Of a DNA stretch of 64,000 nucleotides, positions 6,504 to 29,234 are shown piece after piece (position 1 is the first letter of the stretch; the number at the start of each line of letters is the position of its first letter). A program made the translations under genes and the position numbers. The notes under the pieces are model-generated. The model was not told where the DNA came from, ran no database searches, and saw only the letters and a program-made list of their open reading frames with translations. The DNA is taken from contig JAUXZS010000028.1 of the NCBI GenBank assembly GCA_030692515.1, positions 248,001 through 312,000 of the forward strand. The letters are read 5' to 3'. The DNA is from Bacteroidota bacterium (GTDB taxonomy: Bacteria > Bacteroidota > Bacteroidia > B-17B0 > Aurantibacillaceae).

Positions 6504-6521
6504 TCCCGATAGCTATCGGGA
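6504..6521. repeat. 18-bp perfect palindrome TCCCGATAGCTATCGGGA, copy 1
   Basis: The sequence is a perfect self-complementary 18-mer 7 bp after the clpC stop codon. The same 18-mer recurs at 28151-28168 and 28819-28836, there inside broken tRNA-Leu copies. It has no loop, so it would form a cruciform or an RNA hairpin only with strained inner pairs. It is most likely a dispersed palindromic repeat of this genome. It could also act as a processing or attenuation site in the clpC transcript. Confidence 0.8.
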
Positions 6522-27570: not shown

Positions 27571-27939
27571 TTAGGCTTTTTTAGTTTTTGTTTGAAGTTT
27601 TTCGCGGATACGAGCAGCTTTACCAGTAAGTTCGCGAATGTAAAATATTTTAGCACGACGAACGATACCTACTTTATTTACTTCTATTTTCTCAATAAAA
27701 GGAGATGTAACAGGGAAAATACGCTCAACGCCAATACCATTACTAATTTTACGAACTGTAAAAGAGGCAGTAGCTTTTTCGTTTTTGCGTTGAATTACAA
27801 CACCGTTGTATTGCTGAATACGTTCTTTTTCACCCTCTTTAATTTTGTAGGATACAGTAATTGTATCTCCTGCTTTGAAGTTAGGATGTTTAACTTCGTT
27901 AGTCATTTGTTGTTTTACGTAATCTAATAAATTGCTCAT
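27571..27939 (-). CDS. rplS: 50S ribosomal protein L19
   Basis: The 122 residues match L19 throughout: [35 protein letters not shown], the [29 protein letters not shown] core, and [22 protein letters not shown] near the end. L19 sits at the 30S-50S interface. The gene is monocistronic here, with no trmD or rpsP beside it. Confidence 0.97.
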
Positions 27940-28012
27940 TTTTGCAAACTATTTAAGTTAATATTTCTAGCATTCTTTGCTTTGTGCAAACAGCGGCTTT
28001 GAAATAGGGACG

Positions 28013-28020
28013 CAAATATA
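28013..28020 (-). promoter_or_regulatory. TATATTTG -7 box of rplS
   Basis: The minus strand reads TATATTTG, an exact TAnnTTTG match, 74 bp before the rplS start codon. Confidence 0.6.
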
Positions 28021-28079
28021 TAAATAAATTGTTTGAAAACAGCAATAACCCATTCATTTTTTTAATTTTGTAAAGATTT

Positions 28080-28189
28080 CAGCATTTTTGCTGTTAACTC
28101 TCGTGTTTGTCCTAATTGTTATTAGGAAGTATAGCATGCCAAGGTGTTGGTCCCGATAGCTATCGGGAGGTAACAAGTACGCTTGAGGT
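28080..28189 (+). pseudogene. Truncated tRNA-Leu copy A with leader hairpins
   Basis: A 5' half of a tRNA-Leu-like sequence is visible. A leader hairpin (CCTAAT-TGTT-ATTAGG, 28111-28126), AAGTATA, and then GGTGTTGG correspond to the intact gene at 28622. The 18-bp palindrome sits where the D-loop should be (28151-28168), followed by GGTAACAAGTACGCTTGAGGT. Identity with the intact tRNA ends exactly at the 3' edge of the anticodon loop. A TAATTTTG box lies just upstream near 28065. The GIY-YIG gene starts 36 bp later. Confidence 0.65.
28151..28168. repeat. 18-bp palindrome TCCCGATAGCTATCGGGA, copy 2 (in tRNA D-loop)
   Basis: It is an exact copy of the element at 6504-6521. It lies between GTGTTGG and GGTAACAAG, the place where the intact tRNA has only AAT between GTGTTGG and GGTATACAAG. 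Confidence 0.85.
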
Positions 28190-28225
28190 TTTACAAACAA
28201 AAAAAGACATTATTTTTGTTTAATA

Positions 28226-28522
28226 ATGGCATCAGTATACATTTTATTCTCTCCTAAACTTAATAAATTTTATGTTGGGAGCTGCTTGGATCTTGAACAA
28301 CGGTTGCTAGACCATAAAAACAAGCTCTATTCCAACTCATATACAAAAGTAACCGATGATTGGCTGCTGTATTTTGAAAGGAGCGCTTTAGATGGTCTGA
28401 TAGCAAGAAAGATAGAGACACATATCAAATCAATGAAATCGAAAAAATATATTGAAAATTTAAAAACGTATCCTGAAATGATCCAAAAGTTGGTCATTAA
28501 ATTTTCTAAAGCACCAAAATAA
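28226..28522 (+). CDS. Single-domain GIY-YIG endonuclease
   Basis: The 98 residues are one GIY-YIG domain of the UPF0213/YhbQ-like kind. VYI (from Tyr5) and FYVG (Tyr16, Gly18) stand for the GIY and YIG strands, Arg26 follows in LEQRLLDH, and the metal-binding glutamate is Glu64 in ARKIETHIKSMKSKKYI. Such proteins are nucleases or nuclease-like, and the partner DNA is unknown. The gene lies between a truncated tRNA-Leu copy (36 bp before it) and an intact tRNA-Leu gene (100 bp after it), suggesting a tRNA-linked mobile or repair role. That link is inference. Confidence 0.88.
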   Translation: MASVYILFSPKLNKFYVGSCLDLEQRLLDHKNKLYSNSYTKVTDDWLLYFERSALDGLIARKIETHIKSMKSKKYIENLKTYPEMIQKLVIKFSKAPK

Positions 28523-28573
28523 ATTTCGATTACTTTTTCTATAAAAAATTGCATCTTTGCAATAGCTTAAGTG

Positions 28574-28610
28574 TTGCGAGGTTAAACTCGCAATCTCGTT
28601 TTTTAACGAG
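28574..28610 (+). promoter_or_regulatory. Two adjacent hairpins in the tRNA-Leu leader
   Basis: TTGCGAG and CTCGCAA (28574-28593) form a 7-bp stem, and CTCGTT and AACGAG (28595-28610) form a 6-bp stem with a TTTT loop. AAGTATA follows at once, as in copy A. The second hairpin matches that of copy A in size and position but has different paired bases. It may guide processing of the tRNA precursor. Confidence 0.6.
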
Positions 28611-28621
28611 AAGTATATTAT

Positions 28622-28702
28622 GTCCGGGTGTTGGAATGGTATACAAGTACGCTTGAGGTGCGTATGCCGTAAGGTGTGAGAGTTCGAGTCTCTTCCCGGA
28701 TA
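28622..28702 (+). tRNA. tRNA-Leu (anticodon GAG)
   Basis: The cloverleaf is complete. The acceptor arms are GTCCGGG and CCCGGAT (with a G-T first pair), the D-stem is TTG/CAA around a GGTA loop, and the anticodon stem TACGC/GCGTA holds the loop TTGAGGT with anticodon GAG. A long variable arm (TGCCGTAAGGTG) marks a class II tRNA, and the T-arm is AGAG-TTCGAGT-CTCT. The CCA end is not encoded. A strong terminator follows. Confidence 0.9.
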
Positions 28703-28708
28703 CGGTTT

Positions 28709-28733
28709 AGCCCCGCTTTTGCGGGGCTTTTTT
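28709..28733 (+). terminator. Rho-independent terminator of tRNA-Leu
   Basis: AGCCCCGC, a TTTT loop, GCGGGGC and six Ts lie 7 bp past the tRNA. Confidence 0.92.
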
Positions 28734-28747
28734 AAAAATACAATCAT

Positions 28748-28855
28748 TGGTGTTGGTCTTGATAAATATCTGGACGTATACAAGTACGCTTGAGGTGCGT
28801 ATGCCGTAAGGTGTGGGATCCCGATAGCTATCGGGACGAATCTCCTCCTAGGTAC
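28748..28855 (+). pseudogene. Broken tRNA-Leu copy C interrupted twice by the palindrome
   Basis: A 40-base stretch (28776-28815) is identical to the intact tRNA from the D-loop through the variable arm, including the GAG anticodon. The D-loop holds the 18-mer TCTTGATAAATATCTGGA (28757-28774), which agrees with the palindrome at 13 of 18 positions and occupies the same D-loop site as in copy A. The T-arm reads GGGA, then an exact palindrome copy (28819-28836), then CGAATCTCC, so the element sits in the T-loop. No functional acceptor stem is visible. A terminator follows at 28860. Confidence 0.75.
28819..28836. repeat. 18-bp palindrome TCCCGATAGCTATCGGGA, copy 3 (in tRNA T-loop)
   Basis: It is an exact third copy. 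Removing it and restoring GTT would recreate a normal T-arm (GGGAG-TTCGAAT-CTCC). Confidence 0.85.
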
Positions 28856-28859
28856 TGAA

Positions 28860-28888
28860 GCAGACTATTTTTTAATAGTATGCTTTTT
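28860..28888 (+). terminator. Terminator after tRNA-Leu copy C
   Basis: GCAGACTATT, a TTTT loop and AATAGTATGC (one mismatch) followed by TTTTT lie directly after the broken tRNA, as expected if it was once a transcription unit. Confidence 0.7.
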
Positions 28889-29033
28889 CGTTTCTAAACC
28901 CCAATAGAATCAAGGAATTTCAAATATAAATCATTTCGATAGTTTAGTGGTTAAATAATCCGAATTTCTAGTTGCATTGATAATGAAGTAATTGCATTTA
29001 GAGTCCGGTTCACCCAAAACCAAACTAAAAATC

Positions 29034-29234
29034 ATGAACTCAAAACCTAAAAAACGTTTAAGTATTGCTGAATTAAAATCATATCCCGGATTTGAAAATT
29101 ATGCCGATGAAATGGCAGAAGAGACAAATGCTAGTCTTGAAGCTTTATCAATTCTGTTTTATGAGCATTATCAAAAAACAATTAAAGAGAAGGAAGGATT
29201 AAAAGTGTTTTCAATAAAGGAAAATGAGTTATAA
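29034..29234 (+). CDS. Small hypothetical protein
   Basis: Starting at the ATG at 29034 it encodes 66 residues; an upstream in-frame TTG at 28992 is less likely as a start. The sequence is helical (LSIAELKSYPGFENYADEMAEETNASLEALSILFYEHYQKT) and has no signal peptide. The pattern resembles small antitoxin-like or phage-like proteins, but no family is recognised and no partner gene is adjacent. Confidence 0.5.
   Translation: MNSKPKKRLSIAELKSYPGFENYADEMAEETNASLEALSILFYEHYQKTIKEKEGLKVFSIKENEL

Follow-up and report, generated by a model that had tools for sequence, protein, structure and literature searches.

Integrative elements insert in transfer RNA (tRNA) genes, with sequence of the element restoring the tRNA that is split, and synthetic cleave-and-rescue drives pair a nuclease with a resistant copy of an essential gene. 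In phage T6, the free-standing GIY-YIG enzyme SegB is described as cleaving within tRNA genes at the motif RAWTSGAAC, and SegB cutting is reported to give tandem tRNA-segB repeats via recombination (PMC13096335). By our reading this motif would be the T-loop written on the other strand. Here we analyze a locus in a 64,000-nucleotide stretch of DNA (hereafter the window) from a Bacteroidota bacterium of the Aurantibacillaceae (assembly GCA_030692515.1, contig JAUXZS010000028.1, positions 248,001 to 312,000). At this locus a tRNA-Leu(GAG) gene has probably been split by a homing cassette built around a free-standing GIY-YIG nuclease; the cassette would bring its own rescue tRNA and leave an 18-bp palindrome as a hairpin scar.

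The enzyme encoded at this locus resembles SegB of phages T4 and T6 in being a GIY-YIG enzyme found outside introns and beside many tRNA isotypes. SegB differs in being phage-borne, and the available part of its account (PMC13096335) describes neither hairpin scars, nor the splitting of host tRNAs, nor a rescue tRNA. The cassettes bear marks that might be expected of a chromosomal relative of SegB (tRNA adjacency, target-specific clades, arrays, and both empty and occupied sites), and the hairpin seems to be the feature that SegB, as far as that account goes, leaves unexplained. Compared with elements that integrate into tRNA genes, the insert is free of an integrase and carries a complete extra tRNA, and the interrupted native pieces remain. 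Compared with synthetic cleave-and-rescue, the system would be a natural one if confirmed, its cleavage and its resistance both being putative. What belongs to a known kind is the free-standing homing endonuclease; the exchange of a purine-N-pyrimidine (RNY) triplet for a palindrome is the part furthest from known systems. A search of the open-licence literature (titles and the opening lines of abstracts, and the first entries where listings were long) returned no tRNA-splitting GIY-YIG cassettes in bacterial chromosomes. Within the same scope the palindrome was not found as a described repeat, and the sole match to its 12-base core was, judging from the excerpt, a paper on glioma.

The features of the locus are collected in Table 1. 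The original prediction, made from the letters of the window, reported an 18-mer at three sites together with one intact tRNA-Leu(GAG) and two damaged copies, A and C; a pattern search and ARAGORN bear this out. The 18-mer, TCCCGATAGCTATCGGGA, starts at positions 6504, 28151 and 28819, where none would be expected (100 shuffles), and no further place in the window matches it with up to three mismatches. Copy A as a whole spans 28138-28189 and holds the 18-mer inside its D-loop; as had been predicted, the D-loop of copy C contains a decayed version (13 of 18 bases identical) whose insertion point coincides with that in copy A. Two parts of the prediction required amendment. The 18-mer was said to be inserted in the loops; the loop position holds, but three loop bases are replaced and the event is not a simple insertion. 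The inventory of tRNA copies was likewise correct but overlooked a GIY-YIG open reading frame (ORF) at 28226-28522.

Comparison with G006, a genome of the same genus, reveals the empty form of the site. There, sequence from rplS passes through an uninterrupted tRNA-Leu(GAG), and window positions 27571-28150 and 28776-29200 match adjoining G006 stretches that have only four bases between them, the AATG of the D-loop. Because G006 keeps the site uninterrupted, positions 28151-28775 constitute a 625-bp insertion, which starts with a palindrome and stops one base past the decayed palindrome; an integrase is absent among its ORFs. When the tRNA-Leu(GAG) genes of 13 same-genus relatives were compared, the acceptor 5' strand was GCCCAGG in G006 and five others. 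At acceptor pairs 2 and 5 the 5' strand kept in copy A (GCCAAGG) and the 3' strand kept in copy C (CCTAGGT) match G006 (GCCCAGG/CCTGGGT), whereas the intact window tRNA (GTCCGGG/CCCGGAT) is unlike G006 at both pairs; the region downstream of copy C is the same sequence as in G006 and G343. On the strength of these acceptor pairs and this downstream region we conclude that copies A and C, which are clear tRNA-Leu halves and do not lie far from tRNA homology as a refutation of the original prediction would have it, are most likely the two ends of one native tRNA-Leu(GAG) gene, and that the intact, working tRNA is a replacement allele that arrived with the insertion. Copies A and C each differ from G006 at acceptor pair 4, which we take to be probable decay. 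ARAGORN detected no second Leu(GAG) gene in the source-genome stretches scanned.

The window nuclease matches PF01541 above cutoff (E 1.3e-7), and its AlphaFold2 model has a mean pLDDT (per-residue model confidence) of 91. The best fold matches were a UPF0213 protein, Slx1 and the I-TevI catalytic domain (the top five with probabilities of 0.89-1.00, none at E ≤ 0.001). In NCBIfam, residues 1-39 resemble group I intron endonucleases, below cutoff only. The Y, R, H and E columns of catalytic type, which we presume to have catalytic roles, are invariant or nearly so in the family. In the 30 closest pairs of the family, the ratio of nonsynonymous to synonymous substitution rates is 0.06-0.31, from which it follows that the protein is kept functional; the nuclease is under purifying selection. 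The ORF is free-standing between tRNA copies, with no intron or intein. An Rfam scan of the window returned nothing at the gathering score, and the sub-threshold matches in a 1.2-kb stretch were judged to be chance. A group I intron in tRNA-Leu was rejected for want of such an Rfam match and because the insertion lies in the D-loop. No nuclease relatives were found among 250 candidate stretches from IMG/VR, and tblastn of the window protein against 50,697 phage records gave no match at E ≤ 1e-3; with no matches, carriage of the cassette by a phage or plasmid was rejected as well.

Relatives of this nuclease recur next to tRNA genes. In a sample of 149 genomes of the class, the nuclease was found in 24 (E ≤ 1e-8), and for closer study we took the best 80 of 188 stretches encoding nuclease relatives, all from Bacteroidota by title except one metagenome-assembled genome (MAG) labelled Chlorobiota. 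An intact tRNA lies within 300 bp of the ORF in 61 of the 80 loci (44 upstream, 17 downstream) and always on the strand of the ORF; the isoacceptors are Asn (28 loci), Leu(CAA) (9), Met (9), Leu(UAA) (6), Leu(GAG) (3), Phe (3), Leu(UAG) (2) and Val (1), with examples of Thr, Ala and Val(UAC) among loci beyond the 80. The density of tRNAs per kb falls from 1.55 within 300 bp of the ORF to 0.27 at 300-600 bp and 0.05 at 600-1500 bp. Two layouts are seen repeatedly: intact tRNA, terminator, nuclease and hairpin-bearing 3' piece, or hairpin-bearing 5' piece, nuclease and intact tRNA. Within the genus of the window, 17 of 22 nuclease loci (two of them overlapping) have an intact tRNA within 300 bp, covering nine isoacceptors, and some of the other five lie at contig borders. 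Two individual loci deserve mention. L207 (Flavobacterium fontis) has tandem units of nuclease plus broken tRNA-Asn with two hairpins each. L176 has a nuclease and a hairpin-bearing 3' tRNA-Leu(CAA) piece in a stretch without an intact tRNA, about 21 kb from a normal copy (L123) on the same contig, and is possibly an ectopic copy.

The palindromes at these loci lie within displaced tRNA copies and follow a replacement rule. The 80 loci hold 120 palindromes in 75 loci, of which 79 (in 57 loci) could be placed inside a displaced copy of the local tRNA, compared with 8 of 3,806 random positions; 16 of the 120 were unplaceable, being in loci without an intact tRNA. We extended the hairpin search to 116 loci (the 80 and 36 more, including near-duplicates, since some genomes occur in two collections and some stretches overlap), accepting near-perfect 18-bp palindromes with CCGA/TCGG cores and mapping the sequence on either side of each to the intact tRNA at that locus. 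This placed 92 palindromes in 70 loci, or 71 palindromes when those alike in flanks and isotype are counted once. In 63 of the 92 the palindrome takes the place of exactly three bases, and all 63 triplets are RNY (GTT 27, AGT 10, AAT 10, ACT 8, ATT 3, GTC 2, and GCT, GCC and AGC), whereas RNY accounts for 28% of the triplets in tRNAs and 35% of those in loops; these 63 cases form 27 isotype/position classes and are not fully independent, as tRNA loops are conserved. Longer replacements comprise five bases in 16 palindromes, four in nine and six to eleven in four, and in 91 of the 92 the replaced segment opens with a purine and closes with a pyrimidine. By motif-based loop borders, 88 of the 92 are centred on a loop (D 40, T 23, variable 15, anticodon 10), compared with 49% of RNY triplets, and of the four outside loops that of L205 seems mis-assigned. 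At either end of the palindrome most changes come as complementary pairs: TCCCGATAGCTATCGGGA occurs 46 times, the form with the same core and CCCC/GGGG ends 10 times and that with TTCC/GGAA ends 5 times. In 46 of the 80 loci a hairpin within 200 bp of the ORF could be placed in a tRNA copy; the nearest such hairpin follows the ORF at 0-46 bp in 24 loci and precedes it in the others, at 34-49 bp in 14 and at 62-191 bp in 8. A role of the palindrome as a transcription terminator was rejected by eye, since a T-run is lacking after the tRNA-loop copies of the loci inspected.

Nuclease clades track both tRNA isotype and loop. The nuclease tree has 99 rows, 93 of them different and 87 labelled by isotype. 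On it, isotype labels require 24 changes, compared with 49.5 for shuffled labels and with none of 200 shuffles as low, near-copies among the sequences favouring such clustering. For 45 loci on the tree, the loop that carries the placed hairpin closest to the ORF served as a label; this label requires 13 changes, whereas shuffles within an amino acid have a mean of 20.9 and a minimum of 17 (again 0 of 200 as low). The exact 16-bp core of the palindrome is present in 21 of the 24 genomes of the class sample that encode the nuclease and in 27 of the other 125 (Fisher p 1.2e-9, kinship not corrected). The core was found in 19 of 198 genomes sampled across the phylum, all within the same class, and in none of those sampled beyond it.

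A second type of hairpin occurs at tRNA-Val(UAC). In genome G001 (L240 and L263), ten head-to-tail 89-bp 5' pieces, each with its anticodon arm swapped for TCCCGACTAACGTCGGGA, precede the intact tRNA-Val, which is followed by a GIY-YIG gene, a broken copy, a second GIY-YIG gene and another broken copy. The same 5' pieces number three in G014 and two in G006. The Val site is thus occupied in G001, G014 and G006, and it is empty (a plain gene) in G007 and G346; by our reading of the alignment, the source genome has a miniature version without a nuclease, 55 bp longer than the G007 site. Since the tRNA-Val hairpins differ in sequence from the 18-mer, it seems to be a hairpin, more than one fixed sequence, that matters.

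The original prediction had proposed a genome-wide search for the 18-mer as its own check, and this search upheld a real tRNA preference and no random scatter. In the source genome the palindrome occurs at 31 places with up to two mismatches (14 exact), compared with none for a reversed control pattern, and ten of the 31 lie in displaced copies of tRNA-Cys, Met, Val, Leu(CAA), Leu(UAA) and Leu(GAG), the last accounting for two; the predicted recurrence in tRNA loops far above chance is therefore confirmed here as it is by the placements at related loci. Six of the 31 sites have an intact tRNA (33 were known) no more than 150 bp away where about 0.1 would be expected, the initial tRNA list (32) being incomplete because 150 of 392 candidates were scored, and omitting the window tRNA-Leu(GAG). 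The tRNA-Cys, Met, Val and Leu(CAA) genes each have a short 5' piece with a palindrome in its D-loop directly upstream of the intact gene. At tRNA-Leu(UAA) an upstream hairpin piece is accompanied by a second GIY-YIG gene (57% identical) and then a nearly full-length broken copy with palindromes in its D, anticodon and T loops. The other palindromes of the source genome are in dispersed repeats or intergenic spacers. Of 25 sites in 20 source-genome loci, three lie in open stretches of more than 300 codons, where the net gain of 15 bp keeps the frame. In G000, palindrome copies on C18, C41, C66 and C45 (L001-L003, L009, L055, L056, L058, L059) lie within longer dispersed repeat families and include the end variants ACCC/GGGT and CCCC/GGGG.

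Other short palindromes offer partial likenesses. Rickettsia palindromic elements and the GTAG and CGTC repetitive extragenic palindromes (REPs) are also short dispersed bacterial palindromes; the palindrome here differs as a perfect 18-mer that replaces RNY. Available text describes CGTC as the end tag of R. conorii elements and mentions CGTC elements for Bacteroidetes (PMC3733652). Membership in either family was rejected on these end tags, with GTAG at 0 and CGTC at 5 of 30 source-genome sites and CGTC at 13 of 92 palindromes in tRNA copies. The original prediction had likened the palindrome to a Rickettsia palindromic element entering tRNA loops by itself. That idea is not supported: the carrier copies are displaced halves beside a GIY-YIG gene here and at most related loci, although the short pieces at four other tRNA genes of the source genome stand without one, and apart from the scarcity of the CGTC tag, the same swap is seen in dispersed repeats that are not tRNAs. 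Neurospora PstI palindromes, yeast mitochondrial GC clusters and double-hairpin elements, as far as their account extends, are likewise short GC-rich palindromes that flank tRNAs or are mobile (PMC4478555), but these palindromes and clusters are organellar and have other sequences. The GC42 cluster is described there as having AG target-site nucleotides that are possibly present twice (PMC4478555); unlike GC42 as so described, the palindrome sites here lose three bases.

In the explanation that we favor, and consider probable, the cassette would pair a single-domain GIY-YIG nuclease with a complete replacement tRNA that matches its target in kind. In a cassette-free cell the nuclease would cut a loop of the tRNA gene, and repair from a cassette-bearing copy would bring in both the nuclease and the tRNA; what is left of the original gene would be a 5' piece, a 3' piece or both, and the cell would be rescued by the new tRNA. 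The palindrome would supplant an RNY triplet at the site of interruption and later at further loops of the displaced pieces. It could be a cut-site scar copied from existing palindromes in repair, by which the displaced copies would become uncuttable, and such a scar would also break the homology through which the cassette could be lost. The anatomy of the locus, its empty and occupied forms, the recurrence at many tRNAs, the RNY rule, the specificity of nuclease clades for target and loop, and purifying selection are directly observed, whereas we infer tRNA-loop cutting, homing, the origin of the scar and immunity. A bolder proposal, which we offer tentatively as a possible one, is that this is a natural cleave-and-rescue drive on essential tRNA genes, widespread in Bacteroidota, in which a nuclease of about 80-100 residues would cut a loop RNY, the cassette tRNA would rescue, and structure-directed repair would swap in the palindrome and so immunise displaced copies.

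Several observations weigh against the explanation that we favor. The intact tRNA retains the loops that would be expected to be cut, and its acceptor allele is partly present in the genus (pair 2 only in G008, pair 5 in four relatives). Among the 80 loci, 19 lack an intact tRNA within 300 bp, just a part of the 19 being located at contig ends, and five (L150, L185, L195, L197 and L204) have no palindrome as defined; in L150, 426 bp separate the nuclease locus and the tRNA. Many loci are on MAG contigs, and yet assembly error cannot account for all of them because there are examples on single-contig chromosomes (Flavobacterium sp. LPB0248, L226, and G001). The nuclease tree is short of columns, with 50 of 90 inner branches open, and for this reason we used only label tests from it. 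At tRNA-Val the hairpin replaces the whole anticodon arm, breaking the three-base rule. In the source genome the hairpin pieces at tRNA-Cys, Met, Val and Leu(CAA) have no adjoining nuclease, so the nuclease either is not needed at every site or has been lost. Within the genus the link between palindrome and nuclease is weak, since the palindrome is present in 10 of 15 nuclease-bearing genomes and in 2 of the 6 that lack the nuclease, and G008, of the same genus, has 27 exact 16-mers with no nuclease detected at E ≤ 1e-4. In G008, then, the palindrome persists or spreads without the nuclease, which weakens any account of a purely GIY-dependent palindrome.

Finally, RNY is replaced outside tRNAs as well. 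The repeat GAAAGC-GTT-TTGGTTACTTTT has its GTT intact in G003, in G007 and once in the source genome, and the 18-mer instead in three source-genome copies; most listed copies of the repeat GCCACG-AAT-TACACGAATT carry AAT, and the 18-mer stands there in one source-genome copy and two G008 copies. Because such dispersed repeats and a leader hairpin in G011 show the same swap, the exchange of RNY for the palindrome is not limited to tRNAs, and together with the abundance of the palindrome in G008 this makes the palindrome partly independent of the nuclease. The G011 case is at L245 (positions 1357-1394 compared with 1829-1851), where the leader hairpin of a tRNA-Leu(GAG) piece carries a nested palindrome in place of the ACT of a second leader copy. 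We do not claim hairpin-loop targeting outside tRNAs, as the two uninterrupted repeats fold weakly and the triplet is near, not clearly in, a loop.

A rival explanation, which we think unlikely, is that the palindrome is an independent mobile hairpin, similar to the mitochondrial GC clusters, that targets RNY triplets in hairpin loops of DNA or RNA, the tRNA remnants beside nuclease genes being merely favoured, unconstrained landing sites. The swaps in non-tRNA repeats and in the nested G011 leader hairpin, the 27 copies in G008 and the 21 of 31 source-genome sites outside tRNA copies all fit it. It is harder to reconcile with the stereotyped spacing between hairpin and nuclease ORF, with a loop that tracks nuclease clade within an amino acid and with the strong co-occurrence of palindrome and nuclease in the class sample. 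Target duplication was not seen at the sites compared. We know of no transposase for the palindrome repeat, none having been searched for, and we count this against an independent mobile hairpin too.

The hairpin-bearing tRNA pieces might instead function as RNAs (leader decoys or tRNA mimics) and be retained for the structure they form, the nuclease being a passenger or an RNA processor. The loop-centred hairpins do leave stems mostly intact (88 of 92), and the ten tandem copies before the G001 tRNA-Val each have a hairpin for the anticodon arm; we consider this very improbable all the same, given that the pieces are truncated on either side, decay (the copy C D-loop; L207) and gain more hairpins (L051, L226). 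That a tRNA gene was simply duplicated in tandem and decayed, with a nuclease nearby by chance, is scarcely credible, although tRNA gene duplications are common; this reading is already contradicted by the G006 empty-site alignment, the recurrence of adjacent tRNAs at 61 of 80 loci with 8 isoacceptors, the tRNA density near the ORF, the random-placement control and purifying selection on the nuclease.

If the homing-cassette explanation is true, many Bacteroidota hold selfish cassettes that seize tRNA genes, which are among the few kinds of gene that no cell can do without, and that persist by supplying the replacement. Engineered cleave-and-rescue drives would then have a natural counterpart, and phage SegB a chromosomal relative; the arrays of broken tRNAs and one dispersed palindrome in Bacteroidota genomes would also be explained. 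Under the bolder proposal, the swap of RNY for the palindrome, which acts on non-tRNA sequence as well, would represent templated DNA change of a new kind. How a carrier spares its own tRNA and how RNY is exchanged for a fixed 18-bp hairpin become testable questions. For annotation, broken tRNA copies and adjoining 'GIY-YIG' ORFs should be regarded as one unit.

Table 1. Features of the tRNA-Leu(GAG) locus and the palindrome site elsewhere in the window (positions of the window; native and replacement as concluded in the text).
Feature	Position	Strand	Basis or remark
Probable native 5' end of tRNA-Leu(GAG), copy A	28138..28150	+	GCCAAGGTGTTGG; continuous with native sequence from rplS; 27571-28150 unbroken against G006:C10
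18-bp palindrome in D-loop of copy A, AAT swapped out; left end of insertion	28151..28168	+	
tRNA-like segment, D-loop to anticodon, on inserted side of left palindrome	28169..28189	+	GGTAACAAG form common to a G012 copy
GIY-YIG nuclease gene, 98 aa, between copy A and intact tRNA	28226..28522	+	PF01541
Intact tRNA-Leu(GAG), probable replacement, own leader, acceptor GTCCGGG/CCCGGAT	28622..28703	+	ARAGORN
Terminator-like hairpin and T-run 3' of the replacement tRNA	28709..28733	+	sequence
Copy C, probable native tRNA-Leu from D-loop onward, 3' acceptor CCTAGGT, then native downstream region	28748..28855	+	
Decayed palindrome, 13/18 identical, in D-loop of copy C; right end of insertion	28757..28774	+	boundary from G006 alignment
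18-bp palindrome in T-loop of copy C, GTT swapped out	28819..28836	+	
Complete insertion, 625 bp where G006 has AATG	28151..28775	+	
Exact palindrome in spacer after clpC, no tRNA homology noted	6504..6521	+	gene name from the original prediction

Beyond the cassette, about 350 bp from the end of copy C (28851-29204) recur at G000:C68:268732-269087 (87%) and in G012 (90%). This repeat contains most of an 80-aa ORF without a Pfam match, and a stretch inside it near 28937-29010 resembles, by eye, a decayed tRNA.

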